Source: Polytrichum commune (Eukaryota > Streptophyta > Polytrichopsida > Polytrichales > Polytrichaceae). Taken from it: a DNA stretch of 64,000 nt. The stretch is from positions 26,660,001-26,724,000 of the forward strand of contig OX485803.1 in NCBI GenBank assembly GCA_950295325.1, given 5' to 3'. The notes beneath the pieces are model-generated. The model was not told the DNA's origin and did not search any database. It worked only from the letters and a program-made list of their open reading frames with translations. Shown piece after piece: positions 27,311 to 62,148 of the stretch (within the stretch, counting starts at the first letter, position 1; the number at the start of each line of letters is the position of its first letter). The translations under genes and the position numbers were made by a program.

Positions 27311-30300
27311 ATGGCACCACAGACAACCAATGGAGAGGTATTAAATATTCCGTCTCCCATCCTTCCCAATGCGCTCGAGAATTCGAGCTCTCGGCGTCGA
27401 GGCGATCAAACTTTCCCACATGACGACACAACTTCGGCGATAGCCGATTCCGAAGGAGCACATTTCCCAACTGTATTGAGCCGAGATTCGAGCCAACATC
27501 TTGTAGGACACGCAGGCATTATGGCCAACGGTAATTAAAAAAGACTCACGTTCCTCAATTACGCATTATTTGTCAAATGTCAAAGTTAAAAGCATTTGAA
27601 AATCAACTTCTACGAAAACAAACTGGTTGAGGTTAATCCTTGGATGTCAGCTATATAATTTTGGAATTGGGAAGGTCAAATTAACCACATTGTGCATTGA
27701 GCGTGCCACATGAAGCTCCAGTATATCGAGGCAATAAGGTTTCATATGATATACATGTGCTGTTGAAAAACAGTGTTTTTGATAGTGATTATCTTCCACA
27801 TGAGTGTCCTACCTATTATTTTCATTTGAAGGTCGGTTTTCTTCGAGGTATAGAGAGTGGAAGAAAGTAAGAAAACTAGTTAGCAGCTGCATTAGTGTCG
27901 GTGGAAATGAATTGTTTTAATGAAAACAAAAATGCGGAAAACCTTGGCAGAGTCTCAAACAATCTGCCAGGTTAATACGAGTGGTATGAGTCCGTTAGCT
28001 TTTGGAGGGAGGTGACTTAGCATGTGGTTCCTTCCTAGTGTAATATCGCCTTACAGAATAGTTCTCCTATCTCATTGCCACTTTGGTAGTACGCACATTG
28101 CTTCTTTTCCATGATAATTTCTTCACCATGGTGTCTGCCTTAGATTGTCATTGTAAAAAGTCCTCTTTCATAAAACTCTGCCAAATGCAACACTACACTA
28201 GTCATTTATATGATTTAGTGTGGCATTAAACCTAATGGATGTTCATCTCCATTGGTGCTGCCTCCGTGACTTATCCTACAGCGATAAGTGTCCCATACCA
28301 TACCACCTTCTCTCGTTGTCACCCAATGATAATTGCACGATCATTTACGTAGATTGAGGATGAAAAGGTAAGGAGTGTGGGTCACCAGAAATCAGATGGA
28401 TTGTGCAAGTCTTCATTCTCATGACTCCTCCTGCATTACATGCCAGCGTAACGTACTTTCCAGTCTTCCGAAAGGAGAAATGAGAAAAACCGAGGCAATT
28501 GCGGAATACGATTCTCGCGCCCACTCTTTGTTTGGTTTTCCAAAATACAATTCACAAAATTATTGTCCAGGAGTTTTTGTGTGCCCAAAGAGCTGTGAAG
28601 GGGCCATGTTTTAAGCAATTCTTTCGTACTGGAACCATTCTGTTTTGTTCGACGAGTCTTTTACTAACGAAATAAAACTTGTGACACTGAAATGTCCTGG
28701 CAGGCGATCAGGTCAATGGGGAGTACATGATGAGGGCGCCTAGTGGCCATGACCGTACCCCAAATGGACAGAGAATGGAACACATGGTCGACATCGACAT
28801 TCAGGACAATGGTGTACACAAAGACCGCAAACCTCCTTTGCCAATTGTTTTGAAGGTAAAGCATTTGACTGGCGTAGGAACTAATCACTTGTGAATTTTA
28901 CAATTAAATAAGCCACCTAATGTCAAGCATTTTGAAAGGTTTTATATTATCTACTACTCCCTGGTGTACCCCACCCTGCATGGTATAGCACTTGCATCAA
29001 TACATATGTAGTTATCCTACCATGAGTTCTACAACTAATACGTCTTAGAAGCTCAGAAATAAAGAGTCCACAGAAAGTACATGACAATTATGTTTGATCT
29101 GGGCATAGTGTGTGCAATTTCGATGTGAAAGCATTTAGGGGTTAACAAGTTCAACGTCATTTTGTGGGTAGTGCAACCTATTACAATCATGGAGCTTAGA
29201 ATGAGAGGGTACATAAGGTACACGATAATTGTCGATGTTTGATCAACGTATTTTGCATACAATTTTTGGGGGTGAGAAAAGCACATAGGGGTTGTTATCG
29301 AAACTAATGTAATTTTGTGGGCGTTTGCATAGTTTGTGGATCTTCGAAACACGGTGTCGATTGAGTCAAAAACAACGTGGAGCCCCATGCACCCTTTGAA
29401 GATAAAGAGGCAACCCGGCTCTCAGAAGGAAATTTTGCACGGAGTTACAGGGCGGGTGATGCCTGGAGAGACACTTGCAATCATGGGTCCCTCGGGGAGT
29501 GGGAAGACCACTCTCCTTAATATACTGGGCGGTCGAGGTACCCATGGACTGAAAGGCCAAATCACCTACAATGACATCAAGTACAACAAGGCACTCAAGC
29601 GAAGGTTGGATTTTTGTGATCCGACAAGTTACTTTGAATTGTTTGAGGCCTTCATTAATGTTGTCAGTTACAACACTCATCATTCTCAAAATTCAAGCAA
29701 TGTTCTCTTTAATGTCCTGCAGAGTTATTCTGATACTTAAACCAAACACCGTTAGGTTGTTTGATGGATTCTTGGGACTTGAATGTATGAAATTGCAGAC
29801 GAACTGACTGATTTTGTGGCTGTCTTGGCAGGATGGGGTTCGTGACACAGGACGATGTTCTATTCCCGCATCTTACAGTTCGCGAAACTCTTGTGTACGC
29901 AGCCCTATTGAGGCTACCGACAAAAACTTTCACACGTGCACAGAAGATTGAGCGGGCAGAGGAGACAATTGTGGAGCTTGGCCTCGAAAGGTACAGTACT
30001 TACATATTTGCACACGACTCTCTTCCAATCGTCGGCTTAACGAACTAAGAAAATTTGACATTTTTCTGTGAACCTCTGGATTTCAAGTGATAACGATGAC
30101 GAAAGGTTAACCTAGATCGACGTGAACAAGGTCCAGGCCAAGTAGTAGCATTTACTCTGGAATTAATGATCTTCATGTCTAAATTTTATTCTAGTCACAT
30201 TGTTCATGCCCTTGTTTGTGTATTTATTTGCTGGAGGCAATGGATGATTCTTATCTTCTTTTCTGCGAATTAGGTGTCGGGACACGATCATTGGTGGGCC

Positions 30301-33300
30301 GTTTCTTCGAGGAGTTTCTGGTGGAGAGAGGAAACGAGTAAGCATTGGGCACGAAATCCTGGTGGATCCATCCTTGCTGTTTCTGGACGAGCCCACATCA
30401 GGGTTGGATTCTACCACTGCCCTCCGCATTATCCAAGTCATCCGAAACATCGCAAGGGTAAGCACAAATCTATCAAAACCTGACGTGTGTTTTTTTCGGT
30501 TATTGGGCTCGACCCTGCAATTGTGATTTTTTTTGGAATCAGTAATGTTCCTTGAGCATAAGGTAGGTGTGTGTTTTTGGGATACTTGTCTGCACCCACT
30601 TCTCGTAGTACGAGATGATTAGCAAATCCAGATCGTCCCCACGCTCATTTGCCTCATAAATTTTGGAGCTGAAATGTATATCTCATTCATTACCAAAGTA
30701 AAGATTCTTGTCCTCATTAATTGGTCAAAGAGGTCCCCTGCAATCATGTTGATTATTGAACCTGGAATGGTTAGCATGTATTGAGCATGTGTCCAAGTTC
30801 TCTTGAGACACATGTCTTTATGGTGTCCGTTCTTAGTTCCACACCTAACCACATACTAAAATATAGGTGTTCGTATTATTAATATGTTGGATTTAGGGAT
30901 GTCTACCTTAAATATAAAGGGAATAACCTCATAAGACTATAATTTTACAATGTTATGCTCTACCTCACCAATTTTCAGAATAACTAACTTATATGCTTTT
31001 TGATGTGCAGGCTGGACGAACAGTGTTGACAACAATCCATCAACCGTCCACCCGATTATTTTATATGTTTGATAAACTCATCCTTTTGTCCCAAGGTGAC
31101 TCGATCTACTTTGGGAACGCGAGTGGATCAATGGACTACTTCTCATCGATAGGTTTAAATCCTTTGATTGCCATGAACCCAGCTGACTTCATCCTCGACC
31201 TTGCAAGTGGCAACACCAATGACATGTCCATCCCGCCTGCATTGGAGCACGAGACGAAGATGTCGGAAAATGGGGGCCGTCCGAGCGCCAGTGCTGTTCA
31301 CGAGGTTTGTAATTTACTCCCTGCTCCCTTGTTCTCACTTTACATACCCACCAATTGCAACCCAATCATCTTTGGTAGGCATTTGATTCAATGTCGTAGT
31401 TTGGTTGCTTCATGTCACCTAGAAATTCGACGTATTTAGAGATGTTGCTTTTGGACAGTTTGTGGACTGACTCCAAATGAGTTCAGTTCTAACTTTGAGT
31501 CTCTCGATTGGTTTGTGATGCCAATTTGCTTGTTGCTTAGTTATGGGCACACCTCGTGTCCATAAGAATAATGATGGTCAACGCTGTTCTAAACCCAAAG
31601 CCTTGCTTAAAACCTATGGAAACTCTTGAGATTAGCCCGCCTAAGGCATTTTTTAAACGGTGTAGTTTGATGTCGTTGAATCAACAAGATTAAACTTTTC
31701 TTGATACATGATTGTAGAACTTAGTAATGTTGCTCATCCGAGTTTAGAGTGTTTGACATGGCTTTAACCAAGAGCTGGCATGCTCGGTTAGGCATAGATT
31801 CAATGGTGTAGTTTGATGTTGTTGTTTAACGAAATCAAAGTTATCTTGGAACATGTTAATGTAGAAGTTTGTAATAAACAAATAGGGGCTAGGAAAAGAT
31901 AAGGCCGCAGTGGGTCTCCGACCGAGCCCTAGTTATTGCAGAACGTCAAGTTCCGGTCATTCTAATTTAGAAAGTAACGTGACATGGTTGATCAATGAGA
32001 AAGCAATGTTGAGAAATAAACTTACAGGCTTGCGGCGAGATTGCTTGACATGCTAACATGAAGATTTTGTCTCCTTCGTTTGGCTGTGTGCAGTATTTGG
32101 TGCAGAGGTTCAACCAAGAATTGGCACCCAAGGAGAAGGCGAAGCTGTTAGCCCTACCGTCCCTAAAAGGCGAGCTGAAAGTGGCTATCACAGAGAAACG
32201 CGAGTGGTCAACCTCATGGGTCGAGCAGTTCTCAGTACTGATGGTGCGCGGGCTGAAGGAGCGACGACACGAGTACTTATCGTACCTGCGATTCGTGCAG
32301 GTGTTCTTCATCTCGCTCATAGTGGGCTGCCTGTGGTGGCGATCCAAGCGCAACAATTCGTCGGAGATCTCGGACCAGATGGGGCTGGTGTTCTTCATCG
32401 CCATCTTCTGGGGTATGTTCCCGCTGTTCACCGCCATTTTCACGTTCCCGCAGGAGCGAGCGATGCTGATGAAGGAGCGAGCTTCGGATCTGTATCGCTT
32501 GAGTTCGTACTTCCTGGCGAGGACGCTTGGTGATCTGCCGCTGGACTTGGTGATGCCCACCATCTTTGTGCTCATGGTTTACTTCATGACAAATTTGTAC
32601 TTGTCGGCCGGCGCTTTCTTCCTCACCCTTCTCACCGTCTTCCTCAACGTCGTCACTTCCCAGGTATAATCACCGCTCTTTCCTCAGCTGGGTTACATTA
32701 GCCTGGTCCAACACCAAATAAAGCACTACAATCTAACTATCCTATTGAACCTATAAGATTTAATAATGTAGTATTCTCTTACAGCATTGGTTTTAATGTT
32801 CTGCGCGCTTAAGACTATAAATTGTACAGTGAGTGAGATTGAAGACCTAGGGATCTGGATGATGACCATCATATGTTGTTCCTCTTGTGAAATTACGACT
32901 TTTAGAAATGATTTTCGCAAGGATTGGCATTCACTTACTAGTGACCTCGAGATGAGATTGCCTTTGATAATATTCTAACACGATTGCTTGTGACTGTTAA
33001 TTGGAGCAGGGCTTAGGGTTTTTGATAGGCGCAGTACTGATGGATGTGAAGCAAGCCACCACGTTGGCGTCCATTGTCATGCTTGCCTTCATGCTCACCG
33101 GCGGCTTCTTCGTTCAGGTAATTACTTCTCAACTGCAAACGTCAAGCATCCGGTCTTGAGAAAGATAATTAACAAGAAATATATGACTTCGCTCCCTCCT
33201 TGTCGACCTCGTAGTTCTCCTCTCTCGCCTTCCTCCATATGCAATTTCTTGGGTTGTCCCTTGCCCTCATATACATTGTGTTCATATAGATAAGATAGTT

Positions 33301-33874
33301 CCAAAATGAGTGTGGTCCACCAAAAGCAGAGAGACATGCAGGATGCCAGAAATTAATCAAGCAAAATAAAAAGACATGCAATTATGTGTACATGCAGGAG
33401 ATACTACATACATTGACTACCGTGATTGTTTCAATATATCCCTCAATTTAATTTTAATGACCATGATTGTCAAAGCATTGTACACGTGACTCTTAGCTCC
33501 CCAGACCAATTCTCTTAGCCCTGATTGATTGCTGCTGTTCAATTTCTCAACACCTATGGGATACTGACACAAAAATTGCTTATTGAAATTCAAATCTACA
33601 GAACATTCCAGTGTGGATGTCATGGCTCAAGTATATCTCATTCAACTACTACAACTACCGACTCCTGACGAAAGTCCAGTACTCAAGTTCGGAGACCTAC
33701 GACTGCACTGTGAACGGCGTGAATACGAAATGTGGGATGGCCGGCGACTCTACCTTCCACGGAATGAGCCTGGAGGGCGGAGGAATTGAAGCTATGGCGT
33801 TGCTCATCATGGTAGTGGGCTATCGGTTGCTAGCTTATGGAGCATTGCGGTGCATGAAAACCGGGGGGTCGTAA
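27311..33874 (+). CDS. ABCG: Half-size ABCG transporter (ABCG21/22/27-like), nine coding exons
   Basis: ATP-driven membrane exporter, 743 aa. Exons: 27311-27530, 28704-28855, 29333-29604, 29832-29990, 30274-30457, 31011-31304, 32094-32663, 33010-33117, 33602-33874. Every intron is GT-AG and the phases join without a stop. The nucleotide-binding domain comes first: Walker A GPSGSGKT (residues 176-183), Q-loop Gln221, signature VSGGERKR (282-289), Walker B LLFLDEP (302-308), D-loop SGLD (310-313), H-loop His339. About six membrane segments follow (near 491-509, 524-545, 578-594, 600-628, 634-652, 715-735), with a Cys-containing loop before the last. [13 protein letters not shown] (385-397) and the roughly 120-residue polar N-terminus resemble the plant ABCG21/22/27 clade, whose members are about 700-750 aa. 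An acceptor-like CAG just before the ATG implies an upstream 5' UTR exon. Substrate cannot be read from sequence. Intron 5 carries a dispersed repeat. Confidence 0.95.
30590..30880 (+). repeat. R1 family copy inside ABCG intron 5
   Basis: Collinear with 34935-35250 and 53690-53980, sharing CACCCACTTCTC, GGTCAAAGAGGTCCCC-like, GAATGGTTAGCA and ACACCTAACCACATAC blocks. It lies wholly between the ABCG exons ending at 30457 and starting at 31011. Confidence 0.65.
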
Positions 33875-42012: not shown

Positions 42013-42016
42013 GGTG

Positions 42017-43421
42017 ATGGCGGACCAATCCATCTTGGTGTTCTTCACGTTCTTGGTTGTTCTAGTGACGTTCCACGCTCGTAGACATCGCCGTGTAGTG
42101 CCGTATGTTCCATTCGACATGACGGGAGGACGCTCGATGTGCCGTTTGCTCCCACTTTATGCTACGATGGCGTGGAGGCAGCGATTTCCTCGTCGCATGT
42201 GGTGGGTGGAGCCTCGCCAATACATCCATCACCACATTGTGGAGGGTGATGTGTGGCATACTTCCCCCCAAATGTTAAATTTGAGGTATTGGCAAACTTA
42301 TCGTATGGACTTTTTAGCATTTGAGGCTTTGGTGGATTTATTGACGCCGTTTTTGCGTCCTACCACTGCTACATTTGTTAGACCCCCCATTCCGGTAAAA
42401 AAACAAGTAAAACTTGTCTTGTACCGATTGCCTCATGGTGTAAGTTATGCTAGAATGCACAATTTGTATGGATGCGGAGAGTCCACTATTCGCAAGTATA
42501 CTATGATAGTGTGTTGGGCTTTAAGGTCTAGTGAGGATGGTTTATTTTTTCAGTTTATCCACACTCCCTCTAGCGATAGGCTTCAGAGCATTATAGAAAA
42601 ATTTAGAGACATCAGAGGGTTACCAAACATTGCAGAAGCAATAGATGGCACGCACATACCTTTGAGCGCCAAACCCAGTAGACGATACACTCCCATGCCC
42701 AAAGATTTTTACAATAGAAAACATTTCCATAGTATTGTGTTCCAAGCGGTTTGCGACACAAATAGAATGTTTTGGAACGTACGGGGCAGCCCGGTGGTGT
42801 CCATGATGCAGGGCAATTTGCAGTGTCCTCCCTAGCTACACAATTGAATGGAAGACAGATTTTAGCTGAGCCAATCATCCATCTCAGTGGAATGGAGATC
42901 AGACCCTATTTGGTGGGCGACACTGCTTATCCTAGCAGACCTTACATGCTGAAGAATTTCAAACTAGGAGATCCGACAATGATGGATAAAATTAGGTATG
43001 GCTTGGGATTTTTATTTATTTAATATTATTCATGCTTTGCACATGGTATGAGTTTCATAAAATTTGACTATGACTGTTCTTTGGATTCCATAGGTCTGAC
43101 TCCTCTGTTAATAGGGGACGCGTGGTAATCGAGCAAGCTTTTGGTACTTTAAATAATCGCTGGCGCATTCTTAAGGCCTTTAATATGTATGTAGAAAAAA
43201 CAGCGTTGGTTACTTTAGCGTGTTGCGTTCTTCACAATTATTGTGAAATTCACAACCAGCGTGTTCCTATTCCTGCAGACGTCAGACTTCGTCGTGATCC
43301 ACATGTTGGATTTCATGTGGGAAGGATGCAACTTCCCCATGAAGGTGTAGCTGCAAAGGTATCAGGGGAGAGGATGATGAATGTTTTATTCTCATCATGG
43401 CTAGAGCATAATCCAGAGTGA
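42017..43421 (+). pseudogene. PIF/Harbinger (ALP1-like) DDE transposase, frameshifted
   Basis: Transposase of a PIF/Harbinger element. Exons 42017-42995 and 43094-43421 are joined by a 98-bp GT-AG intron; the product would be about 435 aa. A helix-turn-helix-like stretch lies at residues 141-161. The three catalytic acidic residues are all present: D in AIDGTHIP (about residue 210), D in GDTAYP (42919-42921) and E in VIEQAFG (43131-43133). The frame breaks at a run of four G (42783-42786). Upstream reads FWNVR; downstream GQPGGVHDAGQF continues in the next frame, so one base is missing. It could be a true mutation or a homopolymer sequencing error. The ATG at 42017 follows a telomere-like motif. 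Confidence 0.9.
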
Positions 43422-44504
43422 TGTTTCTCTATGTTAGGTTTTTCACTGTAGCCACATGAGTGGTAAATACTCTACGTATGACCCCATGCTATTGTTTTTC
43501 CACTTTCATATAATTTTGATGTGTCATCCTTTGGTATTTGGCTTTGCACGTGATACATCGGAGTTCAAATTATATGCTTGTCCTAATGAGACACTTATCC
43601 TTGAGTGGTGTGTACATTTAATCCCATGCACTAAGGAGACATGTGTTTAAGATACTTTAATGAGATATCAAAATGAAGAGGTTGAAAATGGTTGCCACCT
43701 AGACTTGTGAACTTCTTAATCCTCTTGTATTGATTGGGTGTTTAGTATGCTAAAAGAAGTGGATGGTGAGCGAAAAATGTTCATTCTCATGTTCTTGATT
43801 GTTAAATGCGTAAACATCCTAATCAACCTTGAGAACATTATGAAATTTCCGAACCTCCGGTTTAGGCCTCTTATATGTTAAACATCATCATGTGTATCTT
43901 GATTTCCACTTGAATATTATGAACAACTTTATTTGCTCTAATACTGTTTTCATACATTTTTCAATCAATCACATAAACATCGCAATTGTATGCTTGAAAT
44001 CATAATTTAACATCTTGACATGGCATACATATGCACCTATGATTGGGAAGAACCGGCAATTAGTTACAAATGATGTCGTTGAGATTAGGAAAACACCGGT
44101 TGAAGTTTAAGACTGCCGGTAAATCACCGATTCTTTTAGCAGAATCATTAGAATAAACCTCAATTTAAAAAAGGAAAATTGAAGGATGCGAACATGTAAC
44201 CGGTTGGATTTGCAAACACTAGGATCTCAACATGTTTCGCCAAAAAATCTTCCCGATCACTGATCTGTACCATAATTTCTACTTATTTTTTAAGAGGAGG
44301 TTTCACTAGAAAGATGAAGCCATTCAAATACAATATTTGTATTCTAAGAAATGCTCAAGTAAGAAGTCACATCCACATAGCTTAAACGAATGAGGTATTG
44401 GCTATAAGTTTGGTGTAAAAATCAAAACCACATTGGCTCCATACATTCCAATTCCCTACAAACACAAACCAAAGCTTCATTGGCATAAATCTATCACTAG
44501 GTTT

Positions 44505-45483
44505 CTATTGAGAATTTTCTTTAACAACTTCTGCAAACATAGCAGCCATCATTTCCCCGCTAGCCTGTTGCAATCTAAACATTTCAAGTTCCAGTTTTCT
44601 GTTTTCCTGGCGTTCTATTAAATTATCTTTGTGCATTGTTAGTGTAGCTTCGATTCTCAACCGTTCTATCTCAGCAATGGAATCTGCAAGTCTATCCAAT
44701 GAATCCATCAAATTCCTATCAACCCTAGCATGTTTAGCTAGTGTGGAATTAGTACATTTCCCCAAAACCCCGGGTAATTTTGATGCTCGTGTTCGTGGAG
44801 TGGTGCCGTTGCTCTGTTTGGTCAGGTCTACTAGACGCTTCAAGATCGGTGCGCTCTGGTGAGTGCACCCAAGATGGGTCACCGTCTCCGTCGGCTTCCT
44901 CGCAAACATCCGTCGGAGCGCTAGAAGTCCCGGTGCCGGGCACGGGTACCCCTTGGTCCATTGCTCCTGGAACACCGTTGGTCTTCGTAGTGAGACTAAG
45001 AATTTCGTCAATTTGATCGTACCAGATGAATTTCGCACCGTCGTCCCGCACACCTGCACTTGTTTGGTTGCGCAATTTCTTGATCTTGGAATAGGTGCTC
45101 CGCAACTTCTCCCACTTGTCTGACAAAGATTTGACCTTCCGCCCAGACTCCTGAGGAAACTGCGTAGTCAACAGCTTGTGCACCCGCGCCCATTGATACG
45201 ATCGCATAGTGATCGTGTTGTGTGCCTCGACGTGTTCCTTGCATTGTTCCAATAAAAATTTCACAACAGCATTGCTCCAATGCTGCTCCTGCACAACAAC
45301 AGGAGCCTATCGTGGGAGAGGAGGGGGTGGACATGTCAACACAAAACTAACGGAAACTGAAGCAACAGGAATGGAAGAGAGTGGAAGAGAAGACAACGGA
45401 GCGGAATTTTGAGAACTTTGTGTCATAACCAAGTTTGTAGGACTATTTGCTAACAACTGACTCAGATAGTTCTCCCCTTCCAT
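44505..45483 (-). pseudogene. Harbinger Myb/SANT-like partner protein, broken
   Basis: Second protein of the Harbinger element, convergent with the transposase. It starts at MEGENYLSQLL (45483) and runs into an in-frame TAG at 45309-45307. The frame resumes directly with APVVVQEQHW and a Myb/SANT-like (trihelix type) DNA-binding region: WSNAVVKFLLEQ, RVHKLLTTQF, LSDKWEKLRSTYSKIKKLR and FIWYDQIDEIL. An acidic linker follows. A second break, a net one-base shift somewhere near 44770-44900, leads to the C-terminal Glu/Arg-rich coiled-coil-like tail (DSLDRLADSIAEIERLRIEA) ending at 44505. Partner proteins of this type assist Harbinger transposases in nuclear import and DNA binding. Two lesions make it a pseudogene unless introns explain them. 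Confidence 0.8.
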
Positions 45484-50634: not shown

Positions 50635-50805
50635 ATGGCGAAGGTGGAGGCAGCCGGGAAGAAGAAGTATTTTAAGGAGTGGCCGACATGGATTCTGAAG
50701 AAGGCCAAGACGGCCACTCACTACGGCTTCATCCCTCTCATCATCTTCATCGGCATGCAGACCGAACCCAAGCCTCAACTATCGCAGCTTTTGAGCCCTG
50801 TTTAA
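50635..50805 (+). CDS. TOM7: TOM7, mitochondrial outer-membrane translocase subunit
   Basis: Small single-span subunit of the TOM complex, 56 aa, single coding exon. The frame stays open upstream of the ATG, but 50635 is the only in-frame ATG and sits in a good context (GGAG then ATGG). The conserved core is complete: [19 protein letters not shown], then the membrane segment around IPLIIFIGM, then [12 protein letters not shown] at the C-terminus, a typical plant TOM7 ending. The N-terminal extension is shorter than in Arabidopsis TOM7 (about 75 aa). The upstream 50420-50634 is GC-rich and includes a short GAGGC repeat, probably the leader and promoter. A 3' UTR probably follows to about 51130; the open frames there are not gene-like. 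Confidence 0.95.
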
Positions 50806-51923: not shown

Positions 51924-52178
51924 ACACAACAGGATACACAGTCAATAAGACAGTTCATAGAAGCGACAATAGGGGTGTCAAAGGATTCGGTTTCTTCCTG
52001 TACCTTTGGAGATGTAGGAGACAACCTAGACAATGATCCACTGTCGGGAAGTGATCAAGTCAGTGGGGATGTTGTGGAAGTGGCTTCTTCCATGCAAATT
52101 GTTGTGGATGGCCATGGTCAAGGGCTTCTCACCATTTGGCTATTGCCGCATGTGTGTTTTGTTTCTATATCGTTCTAA
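51924..52178 (+). other. Unassigned open frame
   Basis: A frame open from about 51924 reads an acidic, protein-like stretch (RQFIEATIGVSKDSVSS, then DVGDNLDNDPLSGSDQVSGD) before ending at 52178. Composition looks more coding-like than its neighbours, and an AG precedes it, but no partner exons or family were recognised. It may be a decayed exon. Confidence 0.2.
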
Positions 52179-52340
52179 TTTTCTGACTGCTTGGTATTGA
52201 GTATGTAACTCTAAAAGCTCTGCCTCTCTTCAGTTTGATTCTATGATTTTCTGGTTACCTTTTATCTGTAAGAGTTGGTTTGAACATCGATAGTCACAAG
52301 GATGTTAAGATCTTCTAAATAGATGCTGTGACTATGGCTG

Positions 52341-52423
52341 GGGCGAACCAACCCGTACATTGGTTCCTTGGAGGCAAGGGTTTAGGCGTCCAACAAGGAA
52401 CAAGTGTATGAGTTGGTTCGCCC
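52341..52423. repeat. Small foldback between 12-bp direct repeats
   Basis: Thirty-base arms (52341-52370, 52394-52423) pair at 26 of 30 positions around a 23-base loop. A perfect direct repeat CTGTGACTATGG flanks them at 52326-52337 and 52429-52440. Whether this is an insertion with a long duplication or a local rearrangement is open. Confidence 0.75.
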
Positions 52424-52522
52424 AAATCCTGTGACTATGGGCAGGGCAAGATGGAATAGTTACCTCTCTTGAAAGTACGATTGTTTGCCTGTGAATTTGA
52501 ATGTCTTGCTTCTGCAGATAAG

Positions 52523-52870
52523 GTATGTGGGTGTTATTCGGTCATTTTTTCATGTTCTTTAACCTCTTCCAATTAGATTCACACAACAAAATCTGTGTTC
52601 CATAAGCAAATCTTTGATGAAACAGCAACAAAAATTGGACTTCCCCTGATTTAGTTATGGTTATTGCAAGTGCATGTTTGTTGATAAGTCCTGCCAATTG
52701 TGTTCACTATCGAGTGTGGAGTAGTTAATAAAATTTGAAGACATAGTCCAATCTCTTTTACCCATGTGTCTTTATCGTGTTTGTTCTTTGATCCTCACCT
52801 AACCCAACCACACACCAATTGAATATATAGGAGTCTAATTAAGACAAGGTACCAAATAACACCCACACAC
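52523..52870. mobile_element. Candidate MITE with GTGTGTGGGTGTTATTTGGT ends
   Basis: Twenty-base inverted termini match at 18 of 20 positions (52523-52542 against 52851-52870). The interior resembles 23264-23614, which carries the same left end but lacks the right one. No clear target duplication was seen, so the superfamily is unassigned. Confidence 0.65.
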
Positions 52871-53370
52871 TTTATAGAGTTTGTTTGGATCCCGCAAATA
52901 CCAAGATTCTATTTGACTCTCTCAGAACATGATTAGAACTGTTAGGTCATGATTCCAGAGCAATTCAGGAGAGGTTATGGTCTAGAAGGATTAGAAGAAG
53001 CTCTTGCATGTCCTTGGGATGTCCTGATACAGGCACCATTACTGCTTAGTTTTCTATTGTAAATATTTAGTTATCTATCAATGAGTGTCAGTTGGTCTCT
53101 GATTTTGCAGAAACTCTGATTCTGACAGAAATTGCAAAACTTAGCCATCAATTGCCTGCACAGTCAGTGTTGTTGGCACAAAAGTTATATCAAAGGCTAA
53201 AAATAAACTGAAGTGCCAACATATGAGATGACAACTATATACAGGAAGTGATCAACTGTGTTACTTAATTATCAACAAATTGTTGAAATTTGGTTTCAAA
53301 ATCATTGTCATGCAATGTGCACTTTAGCCTCAAGACTAACTTGCCACATCCTTGTTTTGTCTTGTCTAAC

Positions 53371-53802
53371 TTACACAGCAGGGAATGTGTAAGGGGCATC
53401 CCTGGTAGATTGAAAATGTTTGCTGCCATAGTCAAAATCTGTCGGAACAGCTCCAAATATCATGGCTTCAGGGTTACACTCTGGAGTCTCAATAAACTGC
53501 ATACAAATCATGGTGTGTCACTGCGAATTTCACACAAGAGTCTAGTGCAGTTGAGCAGTGTAAGTGTAAGTTAGAAGGGTTTATTTCATTTTTTAAATCA
53601 TCACAGACTACTGCTTTAATGGTGTTTATGGAACATAACACATATGGTAGATGGGTCTTAAATGGTCACTTTTTCCGAATAACACACTTCTCCTAGGATA
53701 TGAAACACACAATTAGTACAAGATGGGTAGCAAATCCAATGGAGGTTGTAGCCACTTTCCTCATAATTTCTGGAGCTCATATGAATACCTTCTTAAGTTA
53801 AC

Positions 53803-53833
<31 letters not shown>

Positions 53834-56800
53834 GTCTCCCTCAATTAAGTTGATTGTTGAACCTAGAACGGTTATCAATTTTTGAGCATGCAATCCAATT
53901 TCTCATAGACACATGTCTTTTGGTAGCCATTGTTGAAGCTACACCGCACCAGATACCACTCACATATAGGGGTTCTAATAAGAAAAGTAACCAAATAAGG
54001 TTGTCTACCATACTATGTTTGCATGCTAAAAGATACTCAAGTTGTTCCTAAATCTGCAATTTTTTTCTTTCCAGGAATCTGCTAATTTTCAATGACGTCT
54101 TCATGTACATATACTAGAAATTGTTATCAACTTTAGTCTCAACTTTATGTTATAGTACTGTGATGTTCTCCTCATTGAACAGAGTAAAGTATCCATTCTA
54201 TGATGTGAATGTTGGAAGTAATTACTTGGAGAAAGAGATGCTCAATACGTCGACGGAGGCCAGATATAGACCTTGCAGATCGACCTCGATACATGAGATC
54301 TGCTTCCCTTTGAATCAGTAATAGAATTTCCCGTGTTAAAGGGTGGTCGTAAACTTGGACAGTCCACTTTACATATCCCAACACCGCCATTCGGTCATCC
54401 ATAGATTCTACTTTCTTTGCAAGTTCCTCGAAAAGCTAAGTATCATAAGACAGCCCACACATGTGTCACCAGTGTGAGAATTATGTAGAAAGAATTGAGA
54501 TAAGCTTGCGAAAATGGAATGAAGATGGTTAATGAACCATCTAATTTGATGTTAATTTTCTCCTTTATTTTTGAATTTCTTTCTTGTATAAGTGTACGTG
54601 CATGCAAAATGGTCACATATATGTATGTGCAAGTGAATATGTGTAAGATCAGCATAAGTTTCAAATAACTGAAATACTCCATTCTTCATACATTTGTAAT
54701 TACTAATAAACTAAGTTACCACGATTGTATGCTTACTTGACCAAGATCACTTGCATGCACTGTGCTAGGAGTTTGAACATGCATCAGCTGACCATTCTTC
54801 ATCTCCCATAATTTGGGAAGAGCCATCATTGAAAGTTTTTTTTTGACTCGTTTGCGATGATTTATATGTGCTGCTCGGCACCGTAGATTGTCTATTGTTT
54901 GTAACAACCTCAATTCCTAACCACGCAATAATACACTCGACATGAATTGCAAAGATTCGTATATTGTTCTACAATTAATGCTAAATCTGGTGACTTGAAA
55001 TGTTTTCGAAATAGTATATAGACCAGATTTAGTGTTGATTAAAGTGAACATCTAAAATAACCCAACATTACCATTGAACCTAAAACTAACATTATGTCCA
55101 AGTCATACATTTTGGAGTTGAATAAACTAAAGATGAACTTAATTTACCTTATTCACCAGTTCTTTGACTGCGGCTATGCGCTCATCGCCAGTGCTTGTTA
55201 TTTTCAAATGCTCCTATTTACATGCCACCCATGAGAGTATAAGATTGTCCATTATGTAACGCTACAAATCAAGTCTATACCTCATCTCAAATGCAAGTGA
55301 CCAACATTAAATGTTGAGTCAATGTTGATACAAATTCTTCAGGGCTTCATATACTTCCAGTGCTAACTCAACATTCATTGAATGATTCATTCAACATTGA
55401 TTCAACTCATAACTCAACTTTTTAGGTAGACTTGCAACTACAGAATATAAAAAACAAAAGATTAAAATTGCGACCCTACTTTTGGTAGCCATTGATTCAA
55501 TGATGTTGCTGTTTAATGTGATTGAATCAATCCAAAATCAGTGTTGATATTTGAGTTTAGAGGATTGTGATGTAAGTAACACATCAATGAGATTTGTCAA
55601 TGTTGAATTCTGTCAAAATCGTGAGTCCCCATTGCATTAAATCAACAATCCAATGAAATTTCAGCATGCCTGTAAACGCCAATGCTCGAGCTCTTGATAC
55701 AAAATCTCAAAATCAGCTGCACTCTCTGGATGTATTCGACGCTCAATTTCATAGCGCAACTTTTCTTCAGCTCTTTGTTTTGCCAGAGCATCTTGTTCGG
55801 TCCAAAACTGGAAGTGTATTGATGCATCACGACGAGGTGCATGGAAATATATTCAATGAATTGTAACACAAATTTTCTTAGCTTATACTAAACAATAATT
55901 CTTCAAATACAGATATGCTGAATATAATAAGGTACTTATTGATATTACTTCAATTCTAGATCTACCAGTCATGGTGATGTGCTACAGAGAATTTAAGAGC
56001 GCTTGTTGTTTACCTTTAAAGGTTTCAAGCTACATTAAATAGAAATATAAGTACGGGTTACCATTGGAGTTACACATTGCTATAACTACAATAGAGGCAC
56101 CCATAACTGATCACTTAAGAGATTTTGTACCAAATTTGGAGAAGTATAAAGTGGTGCAAATTTTTTCCATGTAGGAAGATAGAAATTATGAAGACTACAA
56201 ATTGTTTGGTAATTTTATTCCTTGAATTGAAATCACTGTGAAATTTTTGAAGTCAAAAGTTGGCCTGAACAATTATTAATGTTTAGAGTTTGCCATAACT
56301 GTTCATTCCTCCTCACTTTAACACTCAAAACTAGGACATGTGTCATGCCACAATTGGTTCAGGTTTGATCGAAATTCAGTCCCAACCTAATCAAAATTTT
56401 GTCCCAGCCTAATCGAAATTCCGGTACCTTATAAATTGCTGATGGGATCCTGATCAACAATAGACACTTCTATTAAATTTATCGAGAATATCATTCTTTA
56501 CCAAGTAAGTTAATTCATGTTCTTTGATGTGCAATAATAATAAAAACTTTGGTCTCCGGAGGAGACCGACATGAATTAAGTGTCTGTTCGATCCACCTCC
56601 AATCCCATGCCCACAGGACAAGGGGTGATGTGCATAGTAGTTGTTGGTCTAATCAATCTACGTAAAATGATAATCTCAATATAAAGTTACCGCAACATGT
56701 AACTCCAAATGGTAACCCAACACATATAAGACCATGTAGTGTACCACCACATTGGTCTACATGACAGTTTGAACAAGTTGACGACAAGTGTTAAAGCTAC

Positions 56801-59052
56801 ATTGAAATGTCCTATTAGTGTAGGTTACCATTTGGAGTTACATGTTGCTATAATTTTTTACCAATATAATTTTTTTTCATTGAGTAAGTCATATCATGCT
56901 CTTTGATGTGCATACTAGCTATTTGAAATTGTATATCAATTTCAATGTATTGGGAAAGGTAGGTACAATCCAACTTGTATGCGCTCATTCAAAGTGTTCA
57001 CCTTCAAGAGGATGCTATTTCTTTATTGAGGTCCCTCTAAATACTTGTGATACCCATTTCAGGATAACATATAGAATCAGCTTGAGTGGCAACATTGGAG
57101 TCATCTCTTCTCTCTCCTCCTCCTCTAGAATTCAAGTGAAAGAAGTGAAGACTAGTGTTGGATTGGTATTGTCTGTTTTAAATGTCATTTGGGTATCTAT
57201 AATGAAGAAATCACATTTTTTGGATACCGGTAGGGTATGAGTATTTGACAATATTTTTGTTTTCAATACCATTCAGGTCTATATACCATGCAAGAACCTT
57301 TATACCTAAGTAACATGGCCCTAGTATCAATATGGTTTAGAATGGTATTGACCCAAATATCCATATATATGTGCTCAAGATTCTCTCCCCTTGACATACC
57401 CACCAAACATCAATATTTGGCTGATACTACAATATTGATATCCACGGCTAGGTTCTTTGATACCGTTATTGGTATTGATGATTACTCATACCCATGCATT
57501 CGCCTATACACCAAAACCAACACTGGTCATGAAGACCCCAAAAAAAGACTTTGGTCTCCAAGGAGGACCAGAGTGACTAGAGTGTTTGTTTGTAAGCTAC
57601 GGCCATCCGTGGTCACGTCCTCAAGGACAAGGACAATGACGTTAGATGTAAAACTACTTCACCCTTTGCAAGGAGTAGACACTACATCAGTAGCCAATAT
57701 CCATGGAGATTGTTACGTCACAACACATCTTCGTGTCAGGAATCACGATACCTCTTTTTTCGCCTTTGCATATTCGCGCATCCGATTTGCAGTACGTTGG
57801 GCGATCTTGTGGCGAGTGTGCTTTTGGATCATGATCGCTGCGGCGACACGCTTCCGCATCCACGCGTCCGCGTCCTCGTACGGCCCCGGAACACGAGCAT
57901 AGTCGAAGATGTCGTCGATCACCACCCCGTTCTTGTCGAGGGACCAATATGTTTTGTTTTTATCCATTTGCGTAAACGCCTCCTTGGTCGTTTGGTACGT
58001 CCTCGTCCGCATCCACGAGGCTTGTGTCTCCCGGGACATCATTTCCGGGTACTTTTTCTCCACATAGTCGGGCGGCCATGGCTCCCGCGTTTGGGCCACG
58101 GCATGCAAGTACTCCGTGCCTGGCTAATCACAACATGATGTAGCTTGACACATGAGCAAGGTGTTGTTGTATACCAAGACTTAATGTGTAGATGTTTATT
58201 CATTGTTTGGCAACTTCAAGTTGAAGTAGTGCAATGTTGTGGGTGGCACAAAGTTGAAGGGGTGTGCTTTGAAAACTTTCTAAGTGGCACACATCAAAGT
58301 AAGAGGTATAACATTGTTCATTTCTCTAGAGTCGTTCTTTTTCCAAAAGTAAACATATCACATGAGAATTGATTGTGGTTTTTCAAGCTTGCGTTCAAAA
58401 TTCAACTTGAATTTGGTGGGTGAAAGCATATTGAGGAAATTGTGTGGGGTATCATATTACTAAGTACACGTAATGGGTTAAACAAGTTGAACAATGTTAT
58501 ACCATTAAAGTTTCATAAATTTTTAATGAGATTCATTGAGTAAAATAATACATCATTGCTAGAAAATAAAATGAATAATCATATAGTAAGATTGAGAATT
58601 ATGTAGAGGTATAAAGGCATGCCTCTACATAGTGGACGCTTGTATTGATTAGTCCATATGGATAAAATACCCTCTGAACACATGGGGTATACTTGTTTTC
58701 AAGAGAAGCGCACCCCATGAGATTCCATTTCGTTGTCAAAAGACAATGCCAATCGAATTGGAACATTAAAAAAAGGGTGTTAATCAAAGTATTGACAATA
58801 GTGAATTAGAAGCATCATGGTGTTTGGACAAACTTGCTAACCACTTCTAATGTCTTTGAACCCCCCACGGTACGGCTTGGCCTCGATGTTTTTCCGGTCA
58901 ATGTGCACCGACAAAACTTTGGGTTCGTTGGTCGAATCATCCCACACCTCCATCGTCACATGGGACCCCTTCTGCCGCGACTTGCTTCCCGGCCTCACGG
59001 GGGGTGTCGAGGGTGCCTTAGTATTACCCTCCGGTGGAGACGGCGAGGCCAT
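53371..59052 (-). CDS. IQUB: IQUB/CFAP253-like axonemal protein, seven chained exons
   Basis: Homologue of the ciliary IQ-motif and ubiquitin-like protein IQUB, a radial-spoke component in animals. Exons: 59052-58842, 58119-57752, 55807-55670, 55213-55148, 54916-54737, 54435-54226, 53496-53371; 432 aa as chained, all in phase. Family signatures in order: KPYRGGFKD (60-68) joined across an intron to GTEYLHAVAQT (71-81), RETQASW (100-106), an IQ motif around IMIQKHTRHKIAQR (166-179), IHPESAADFEILYQELEHWR (20 residues, 218-237), LRLLQTIDNLR (263-273), REILLLIQREADLM (355-368) and LFLQ then FIETPECNPE (388-401). The 55807-55670 exon has a GC donor; the other introns are GT-AG. The N-terminus is probably incomplete (see the candidate exon at 59250-59355). 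The last exon either stops at 53371 or splices at 53375 to exons not found. Animal IQUB is much longer (about 790 aa). Confidence 0.85.
53640..54010 (+). repeat. Dispersed repeat family R1, copy in IQUB intron 6
   Basis: Its blocks GGAGCTCATATGAATA, GTCTCCCTCAATTAAG, ACACATGTCTTTTGG and CACTCACATATAGGGG recur in the same order at about 3540-3870, 30590-30880 (ABCG intron 5) and 34935-35250, and inverted at about 9400-9620, 19900-20150 and 20330-20520. It contains a GATA microsatellite at 53803-53833. No coding capacity; class unknown. Confidence 0.65.
55270..55600. repeat. Dispersed repeat R3 in IQUB intron 3
   Basis: Inverted relative of the repeat in GNA1 intron 1. It includes AAAATCAGTGTTGATATTTGAG and several GTTGAGTCAATGTTGA-like inverted motifs typical of a foldback. 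Non-coding. Confidence 0.55.
56692..56848. repeat. Foldback with perfect 26-bp arms, in IQUB intron 2
   Basis: GCAACATGTAACTCCAAATG and onward (56692-56717) is inverted exactly at 56823-56848. Related half-copies lie near 1190-1215 and 56058-56085. It sits in the 1.9-kb intron between the second and third chained IQUB exons. Confidence 0.72.
57220..57520. repeat. R2 family copy in IQUB intron 2
   Basis: Contains TTGTTTTCAATACCATTCAG, CCACGGCTAGGTTCTTTGAT and CCATGCATTCGCCTATACAC, matching the GNA1 intron copy. It lies between the IQUB exons ending at 57752 and starting at 55807. Confidence 0.6.
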
Positions 59053-59249
59053 CCTTTGAATTAGTCGTCTCCGAATTCAATGTCCACTACACGAACAAAC
59101 TACTTCAACCTTTGGAGAATGTGAATCATTCAAGGGTTGGCCAAGAATGTTTGGCCGCCTCGTCAACACACCGCAACCATCTCGAGGTGCACATTTGGAG
59201 TGCATCATGTTTTGAAGAGACATTGGTTGTGGTGTTGAGAGGTGGACTT

Positions 59250-59355
59250 TTGATTGTCACCATTTGCGCACTCGTGAGCTTGTAGATATCGGAAAACTGG
59301 AGCCGGTTTACATTTGTGTGAAAATCTCGGAGTTGGAGGCCCGCATAATAGAAAT
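59250..59355 (-). CDS. IQUB: Candidate upstream exon of the IQUB-like gene (ubiquitin-like fold segment)
   Basis: On the minus strand a CAG acceptor at 59356-59358 is followed by an open frame reading FYYAGLQLRD and then FSDIYKLTSAQMVTIK. The pattern resembles the second half of a ubiquitin-like domain (the AGKQLED and LSDYNI region of ubiquitin). IQUB proteins carry such a domain just before the part encoded by the next exon. The donor joining it to 59052 was not identified, so the right-hand limit is approximate. A frame change is needed before the next exon. Confidence 0.4.
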
Positions 59356-59419
59356 CTGTGGGGGTTGACCTCACAAAAGTAAGCCTCAAATTGGCGTGCA
59401 CTGCTCTGTAAGATGGCCC

Positions 59420-62148
59420 AAGTCAGTTGAGAAAATAATTGAGAATAATTTCCATGCTGCACTTCACGTAGTAGATGTATTTCTTCAAGGAAACGTAGAT
59501 TCAGATCAAACCTAAGATTGCATCTCAACTCCCAAGGAATTTAACCGGCGTCAAAGATCATTGCACAAATACCATGGCTACATCAACTCAGAATTTGAGC
59601 TCAAGTCGCTTAATTGGCATCATCCTCCTCCATTGCACCGTTGAGCCGATAACTGTTATAAATTCAAATCTCTTGCCAATATTGTTGAGGATTTGAAATC
59701 TCACTCCCCCTCCAACAAAAATTACACAACTGAGAGTTGAAACTGTAGGGATGACACCCATTATAGGTTTGCAAGAATGAGAAATACTTCACCTTTGATC
59801 AAAGCTGCAAAATCAACTGTAAATCTGAGTCATGTTCACGATTCCAGGACCTAATGTAGGTAGGGCTCGTTCTACTGCCAATCCTCCTAGCCTTAGTTTT
59901 CTTTTTTCCATTTCATCTGGCTTGTGTTCCCAAGCTAATCGGCTTCATAGTCACTCAATCTTTGTGGCCTGCAATTTCTTTTTTCTTCTTAAATAACAAT
60001 GCCGTCTCTTTTCAGGATAGGATTACTTTGATCGATGCAAGATTCTCCCTGCCTGAAGCATTTCTGCAAAAAATAAGAACCTCCAAACTTACACACAAAA
60101 GTGCAGTAGAAATTTTGCATCTCCGGTCAATTCAGGCCAGCATCATCACTTGCAAAGCGAGATATTAATCAAAGCTCCAGAATCACAGCTCCTTTAATCT
60201 GCTCCTTCTGCACGCAGACTCGACGCCAAAAACCATTGTCTTGCGCCCAGGTCAAACATTGTGAACCTTGAAACGAAGATGTCATGCCCAAAATGACAAT
60301 TTCCAATTCACAATATCAGCCCAAACATTGAATCCAAACTTGAAGCTCACGATAACACGACCTGTTTATGGCCCTTTCCTTATATATTGGGTTCCCACTG
60401 TACAGGGTTCTCACCGAAATCGTGACAAATACTTGCTCAAAACAAAAAAGGTCAAACGCAGAATGTATTTGTGAGTCTTGGAATTGAAGGGCGTATCATG
60501 CCACCAAGACGAGTTACCAAAGCGCAATTACAATGTACAATATCCCGGCCTCGCAAACATTGAATTTTCACTTGAAGCTCATGACAAAACAATTTTTTTC
60601 TGCTTTTTCGGATCGGGTTTCCACAAACCGGTCCTCACCAAAGTCATGAAAATTACACACAGGCAAATGCAAGCTTGGAGGAGCGGCCCCATGACAACGG
60701 AGTAAATTTGGGATCACAATTCTGCAGACAGCGCCTTTACAAAATGTGAAGATCAGGGAAAGTAAGGCCATAGAGTGAAGTGGGGGAGGGAAAAACTGCC
60801 CTCAACCGGCTGACATAAAGGCTCCCTGGGTTTCACTTGAATTGCCCAGCAATAGGGCACCTTACTTTGGGAGAGAGAGGGGATTTATCGCCTGCTGGCA
60901 TACCTCTCATTCATCCAACTTCAACAATGTCCGGGGAGGATTTTGGGCATAATCGGTCGAAATCCTAGTGTTTCCAAGACCAACCGGTTACATGTTGTGA
61001 TCTTTTGGTTCTTCCTTCACTAATTTGAGGAATATTTTAAAGATTCCTTTAAATGATCGGTAGTTTACCTGATGTCTTGACCTTAATGGTTGTTTCTCAA
61101 ATTCAACTAGTTCATATGTGACTACCGGTCAGTTCTCCTCATTCATTGCAACTTAAAAGTCCTAAAGCTAGTATGTAGTATGGAGGTTGATATAGATTTG
61201 ACAACGGAATTAGTTTCAGAGACCTTTATTAATCTAGTCCAAGTCATTTGAAACGATTTGGCCATAAACCTACACGGGGTCAAGTTTTAATGTTGGATGG
61301 ATGAGAGGTACTTCCGTATGCGATAGTTCCATGTTTAGGACAAGGACTAGATAGTTTTGCTCTTTCAATTGGCCCCTTGCCAATCTTACGGATGTAACGA
61401 GTATCTCCATTGATAGAGCCGCAAATGGACCTCTACCACTGGTTTTTTGGACCTTTTAAGGCAAGGTTGCACCCTCCATCCTTCACCCGACCCAAAGTCA
61501 ACATGTTTTTTTATATTCTTATCCATCACCAATTGTGTTGTAGAGGGCCCTCTCCCTTGAGTGGATGGACTCTCAAAATGTACAAAGCTAAAACATTTTT
61601 GAAATAGGGCCCTTTATAACATAATCAACGCCCAATAATAATTCAAGATAATTGTAGGCTTTGGGGAAGGATGCATCATGAGACTAGCTTGAAAAAGTTT
61701 AAGAAATTGGTGGTGAGGGACGTTTGTGCCTCTACGAGTGGGGACACTCTAAAAGGGCTATACCTAGTAAGAGCATATTCTCCCATAGGTTTGTGGTTAA
61801 TTCAACTTGGATACACTTAAGCTACTTTGAGGTGTTTGGCACTACAACTTTCACACCTAATAATGTGGGCTGAAAGTTAGAATGGGTAGAAAAAATTACG
61901 ATTTATTGCATTTTTATGTGGGTTGGAAATTAGGATGGCTTATAAATCAATAAAAAGTTATTACTCAAATATGGATAAATAAATAAATAAATATATATAT
62001 TATTGGCACTACATATGTTCACCCCACAATTATTATTCTTTATAAACTTAATTTATTAATATTTAAAAAAATTGTTTCTCTAATTCATATGATAATGTGG
62101 GTTCATAAATGGCTCGGACCAAGAAAAGTTACATTGACCCCCGTTAAT
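59420..62148. other. Gene-poor region upstream of the IQUB-like gene
   Basis: It may contain the missing first exons and promoter of the IQUB-like gene, but none could be chained. Two diverged copies of a roughly 200-bp unit are visible (about 60280-60430 and 60495-60690), sharing AAACATTGAATCC/TTTTCACTTGAAGCTCA-like blocks. Confidence 0.4.

Follow-up and report, generated by a model that had tools for sequence, protein, structure and literature searches.

Introduction

In Chlamydomonas, FAP253 is an adaptor of radial spoke 1 and is located where the base of this spoke meets the doublet microtubule; it is bound by calmodulin at a place between spoke and docked inner arms, and it is also contacted by the p28 dimer of inner dynein arm a (available text of PMC12399478). 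The same portion of that paper describes the FAP253 proteins of Tetrahymena and Chlamydomonas as lacking the ubiquitin-like domain predicted in mammalian IQUB, and because of this absence the domain does not define the family as a whole. Human IQUB variants accompany poor sperm motility (accessible part of PMC12832936). IQUB has so far been studied as a mammalian sperm-motility gene, and FAP253 in one alga and one ciliate. A literature search, in which subscription journals were thinly covered, returned no paper on land-plant IQUB/CFAP253 by title or abstract among the matches listed.

Cycads and Ginkgo retain swimming sperm, Ginkgo doing so without RSP2, RSP3, RSP9, and RSP11, and many flagellar structural genes have been lost from Gnetum, conifers, and angiosperms, according to the part of the Cycas genome paper that is accessible (PMC9023351). 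Here we analyze a 64,000-nucleotide stretch of DNA (the window), which corresponds to C1:26660001-26724000 of a 407.8-Mb assembly. An earlier note, made from the letters of the sequence, had proposed that it contains an IQUB/CFAP253-like gene hidden in short exons.

Results

A seven-exon gene on the minus strand

Seven exons join in phase on the minus strand between positions 59052 and 53371 of the window, giving a coding sequence of 1,299 nt that encodes 432 amino acids with zero internal stops. The exons, together with the unusual third intron, are as follows (E-values are for each exon found alone by tblastn with FAP253, unless another query is named):

Exon 1, 58842..59052, minus strand: 211 nt; ATG start; holds VTMEV..KPYRGGF; E 0.022
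Exon 2, 57752..58119, minus strand: 368 nt; holds GTEYLHAVAQT, RETQASWMR, TQM, and the IQ-like helix IQKHTRHKIAQR; E 1.6e-7
Exon 3, 55670..55807, minus strand: 138 nt; holds HPESAADFEILYQELEHWRLQ; E 9e-13
Intron 3, 55214..55669, minus strand: 456 nt; read as GC-AG; missing from the second copy of the gene (C4), in which a single exon takes the place of the two flanking ones
Exon 4, 55148..55213, minus strand: 66 nt (22 aa); missed by the FAP253 query, found at E 6.3e-4 with the window's own protein as query
Exon 5, 54737..54916, minus strand: 180 nt; holds ELRLLQTIDNLRCRAA; E 2e-8
Exon 6, 54226..54435, minus strand: 210 nt; holds LTREILLLIQREADLMYRGR and the core of the Pfam IQUB domain; E 3e-15
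Exon 7, 53371..53496, minus strand: 126 nt; holds QFIETPECNPEA and the stop codon; E 1.6e-4

The six introns measure 722, 1944, 456, 231, 301, and 729 nt and have GC contents of 30-36%. Intron 1 is in phase 1 and the other five are in phase 0; all acceptors are AG, and five introns are GT-AG, the third being read as GC-AG. Around the start ATG at 59052, positions -3 and +4 are A and G, and an in-frame TGA lies nine codons upstream, at 59079, which places the stretch up to 59355 outside the coding sequence. The span of 53371..59355 given in the earlier note therefore keeps its lower end but not its upper one.

The proposal that seven minus-strand exons join in phase was borne out by the open 432-aa frame, by the AG acceptors, and by the alignment of the junctions to orthologues: all six are gap-free at the junction itself when aligned to four orthologues from the PDB. 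The divergent PDB sequence 9e5c carries insertions close by, two residues past junction 1 and five past junction 3. The second gene of this genome, on C4, has five of the six junctions and no intron at the remaining one. The IQUB signature motifs quoted in the note are all present, with 4 residues separating HP from DFEILY. Its statement that no single exon is obvious alone did not survive, since five of the seven were found singly at E <= 1.6e-4. In this search of the window with 360 residues of FAP253, exons 6, 3, 5, 2, and 7 were recovered at E 3e-15 to 1.6e-4 and were collinear with the query, and three non-exon matches had E-values of 5.2-9.1; the best match of each of 20 shuffled queries, used as a control, fell between E 0.05 and 5.2. 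Exon 4 aligns when the window protein is compared with the four PDB orthologues and the C4 copy. When seven segments of matching lengths were drawn at random 20,000 times, no draw was open throughout, a figure that serves as a guide only because the exons had been picked for being open. We regard the match of the predicted protein to FAP253 (E 3.8e-75) as the real test of the gene model.

Two further observations concern the composition of the gene. Fourfold sites carry G or C at 68 of 90 positions in exons 1-2 and at 32 of 98 in exons 3-7 (p 3e-9), and the introns between the exons are AT-rich. Intron 2 contains an inverted repeat (window 56657-56883; 61-nt arms, 77% complementary, 105 nt spacing) that resembles a small non-autonomous DNA transposon.

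The third intron is best read as GC-AG

When a nearby GT donor was combined with another acceptor, four choices kept an open frame at intron 3. Each of them removes approximately 13 to 25 residues of the aligned region, with part of EHWRLQEHLKITSTGDERIAAV among the residues lost. This stretch aligns to FAP253 with no gap at the junction, and it holds R237, E240, and I244, which are invariant in a five-sequence alignment. At the corresponding site, the C4 copy reads straight across with no intron (WRMK-EVM in the C4 copy versus WRLQ/EHL around the junction in the window gene). We rejected a GT donor for intron 3, because conserved residues would be lost and the stretch is retained in the C4 gene, and for the same reasons we prefer GC-AG, which is the best reading of this intron, short of proof. 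An exact gene model that includes the likely GC-AG intron is directly useful for annotation.

Family assignment of the predicted protein

In hmmscan, the 432-aa protein matched one Pfam family, IQUB (PF25805; E 2.1e-45, 154 bits against a cut-off of 27.8), over residues 280-414 only. A phmmer search of PDB sequences, with a limit of E 1, returned five distinct ones, and all five were IQUB/CFAP253, under the names FAP253, CFAP253, IQ and ubiquitin-like domain-containing protein, and IQ motif and ubiquitin domain containing. The best match, over residues 44-413, was FAP253 (7jtk chain s, which we take to be the Chlamydomonas protein; E 3.8e-75); FAP253 also occurs in three other PDB entries. The collinear central region is present (GGF, TQT/TQM repeats, DFE.LY.ELE.WR), and 62 columns are invariant among five sequences. 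Searches of prokaryote and viral sequence collections gave 174 and 78 pattern matches, respectively, none of which was confirmed as a relative. The family call made in the earlier note thus agrees with the Pfam match and with the PDB search, and the predicted product is a new, well-supported member of the known IQUB/FAP253 family, a result that is mostly expected given swimming sperm.

We compared the window protein with FAP253, 9e5c, and 8j07 chain c2, which we take to be human IQUB, and asked how often each protein was the odd one out. The other three agree at 84 positions, and the window protein departs from them at 22 of these. The human protein does so at 26 of 88, 9e5c at 30 of 92, and FAP253 at 5 of 67, which puts the window protein close to the first two and well above FAP253; when 9fqr replaced the human sequence, the window protein differed at 20 of 82. 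We read the 22 changed positions as ordinary divergence and not as decay.

Ubiquitin-like domain and IQ segment

The 432-aa protein has no Pfam ubiquitin match. Above exon 1 there are 64 minus-strand frames of at least 25 aa, and we scanned ten of these with Pfam, chosen by eye in a selection that left out three larger frames (of 77, 64, and 61 aa; those of 77 and 64 aa are simple-repeat translations) and all shorter ones; the scan gave one chance-level match (E 0.17). An upstream exon carrying a ubiquitin-like domain was rejected on the grounds of the TGA at 59079 and of these ten frames out of 64, in which nothing notable appeared.

The earlier note listed an IQ motif. The IQ-like segment keeps IQxxxR, and I168, Q169, and R173 are invariant in five sequences, but a 60-residue window peptide around the segment has no Pfam IQ match. 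A 62-residue peptide from the C4 copy likewise had no Pfam IQ match and gave one chance-level transposase match instead. The IQ peptides of all four orthologues did match Pfam IQ weakly (E 0.00049, 0.022, 0.0047, and 0.0013), and since all four scores lie under the Pfam cut-off of 20.3 bits, the contrast between the window and C4 proteins and their orthologues is one of degree. Because the window peptide fails to match where the four orthologues match weakly, calmodulin binding by the window protein may be weaker or lost.

A second IQUB gene in the same genome

The same genome contains a second intact IQUB gene at C4:8271940-8278473, with six exons encoding 531 aa and zero internal stops. Its protein matches PF25805 at E 9.8e-46. 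Against the PDB, FAP253 is its best match (E 1e-60), and the same five IQUB/CFAP253 sequences come first, followed by four weak matches (E 0.05-0.9). A profile search of the genome, with the best candidates scored, found no third PF25805 gene. The two genes have five introns in common, at the same positions and in the same phases, and intron 3 is found only in the window gene. Their proteins share RETQASWMR, LRCRAA, WTVQ, and ADLMYR, which are absent from the four PDB rows; the C4 protein is 99 residues longer than the window protein, and it lacks a 9-residue insertion of the latter.

Over 420 residues, the window and C4 proteins are 48.1% identical; dN is 0.49, and dS was too high to compute (NG86 = -1). 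These values suggest that selection has kept both copies. In a six-sequence tree of the two plant copies and four PDB sequences, the plant copies are sisters (UFBoot 100), and their branches measure 0.38 for the window copy and 0.72 for the C4 copy, the latter approximately 1.9 times as long. Core identity to FAP253 is 43.6% for the window copy and 38.8% for the C4 copy. Probably the duplication is an old one that took place in the plant lineage, after which the window copy changed less than the C4 copy.

Partner flagellar genes and the genome

Seven contigs, each of 42-78 Mb, together account for 406.07 Mb (99.6%) of the assembly, and C8 is only 147 kb. The plant telomere repeat opens four of the seven large contigs, and the other three start with N in the bases shown. 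A genome of 0.4 Gb in seven chromosomes would suit a Polytrichum-type moss (Polytrichaceae, n=7).

RSP3 (PF06098) is represented by two genes, at C3:42365466-42366742 and C7:28440008-28440154, which we compared as blocks of reading frames joined together and not as end-to-end spliced models. The blocks are 50.8% identical to each other (63/124), and the C3 and C7 blocks are 61.3% and 48.0% identical, respectively, to algal RSP3. Up to E 0.01 in the PDB, each block matched RSP3 only (seven of seven sequences; best E 2.6e-37 and 7.8e-24). On these comparisons, the RSP3 pair, with one conservative and one fast-evolving member, repeats the IQUB pattern.

A clear RSP4/6 gene (PF04712) lies at C1:21992023-21995298, and one p28 gene (PF10211) was found, on C5. 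The dynein heavy chain family (PF03028), which by itself cannot separate axonemal from cytoplasmic dynein, gave 13 matches at eight separate places, 12 of them above the cut-off. In 14 control genomes, which make a weak control, there were no matches for PF06098, PF10211, PF04712, PF25805, or PF03028. A weak second RSP4/6-like match was also seen at C5:30767410-30767628 (E 7.8e-4, one stop inside).

Other features of the window

A multi-exon gene on the plus strand at 29333-32666 encodes an ABC transporter with ABC_tran and ABC2_membrane domains, presumably ABCG-like; the next long frame after it (33587-33871) has no Pfam match. What looks like the remains of a PIF/Harbinger-type element occupies 42014-45306, with a DDE_Tnp_4 transposase in two plus frames and a Myb/SANT-like minus frame; the domain scores are near their cut-offs, and no clear pair of terminal repeats was found for the element. 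A TOM7 gene lies in a single plus-strand frame at 50635-50805 (PF08038, E 2.6e-18). A Pfam scan of ten further long frames in the window gave nothing at E 0.01 or better, and searches for RNA families and tRNAs, including one of 52000-61000, found none in the window.

Discussion

Function of the window gene

The structure of the gene, its family, and the presence of genes for its partners are read directly from the genome. Taken together, they make it very probable that the window carries an intact IQUB/CFAP253 orthologue and that this nuclear genome belongs to a land plant, most likely a moss, whose sperm swim; the gene would serve there as the radial spoke 1 adaptor. The role as spoke 1 adaptor in sperm flagella is the most likely one because of orthology to FAP253: the plant protein would dock radial spoke 1 in the sperm flagellum and couple that spoke to an inner-arm dynein. 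On this reading, the window protein would be expressed in male gametes, would be located in the axoneme, and would bind the partners of FAP253.

The earlier note had argued from IQUB to swimming sperm, and this argument gains strength from the rest of the genome, which also has RSP3, RSP4/6, p28, and dynein heavy chains, a co-occurrence that makes working sperm flagella most likely. It had also excluded conifers and flowering plants as the source. That placement was right but loose, a bryophyte being most likely; the flagellar gene losses described in the accessible text of PMC9023351 argue against Gnetum, conifers, angiosperms, and Ginkgo as the source.

One copy or two functions

The strongest rival reading is that the IQUB copies, and the RSP3 copies with them, have become specialized for chemically different spokes or for different flagellar positions, the window copy being the conservative one. 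Two PF25805 genes with 48% identity, a dS beyond computing, a sister relationship (UFBoot 100), and branches of 0.38 and 0.72 are what such specialization might leave behind, and the pairing of RSP3 (C3 and C7 blocks 50.8% identical) and the weak RSP4/6-like stretch on C5 (E 7.8e-4, interrupted by one stop) point the same way. Against it, p28 was found as one gene only, and old gene duplicates are common in mosses. We consider specialization unlikely.

A short N-terminus, changed conserved residues, and an unusual GC donor could also mark the window gene as a decaying or silent copy that has persisted by chance, the C4 gene being the functional one. Yet the gene maintains 432 codons without a stop or frameshift, and of the two it is the slower, more FAP253-like copy, both in core identity (43.6% versus 38.8%) and in the tree. 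Decay of the window copy is thus not supported by the residue counts, the comparison of the copies, or the tree, and we regard it as very improbable. That the protein belongs to another family sharing just an IQUB-like domain is barely credible: PF25805 does span residues 280-414 only, and a ubiquitin-like domain and a Pfam IQ match are lacking, but residues 44-413 are collinear, including KPY.GGF and TQT/TQM, and the PDB up to E 1 returns IQUB/CFAP253 only.

A bolder version of the specialization reading may also be put forward. Two parallel sets of spoke-scaffold genes (IQUB, RSP3, and perhaps RSP4/6, each with a conservative and a fast copy) might build two kinds of RSP3/IQUB spokes in sperm flagella, the calmodulin site being loosened in both IQUB copies. 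We think this quite doubtful and offer it tentatively. The diverged IQUB and RSP3 pairs raise a testable question, namely whether the RSP3 spokes of moss sperm are of one kind or of several, and specialist attention would best go to the duplicated spoke scaffold.

Comparison with known systems

A confirmed plant IQUB with its partners in one genome offers a land-plant system for testing spoke 1 docking, and its closest described counterpart is that of Chlamydomonas. FAP253 is collinear with the window protein over 360 residues at 42% identity, and, like the window protein, it ends soon after the IQUB domain and has no ubiquitin-like domain (available text of PMC12399478). The window protein differs from FAP253 in an N-terminus that is approximately 255 residues shorter before the match, in a 9-residue insertion after TQM, and in the IQ segment, which reads IQKHTRHKIAQR in the window protein and IQRWVRGWLGRK in FAP253. 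Mammalian IQUB (8j07 chain c2, and 9fqr chain Ij, which is 85% identical to it) has the central and IQUB-domain blocks in common with the window protein at 33-34% identity. Unlike the window protein, it extends approximately 200 residues past the matched part and has a predicted ubiquitin-like domain (PMC12399478, same portion).
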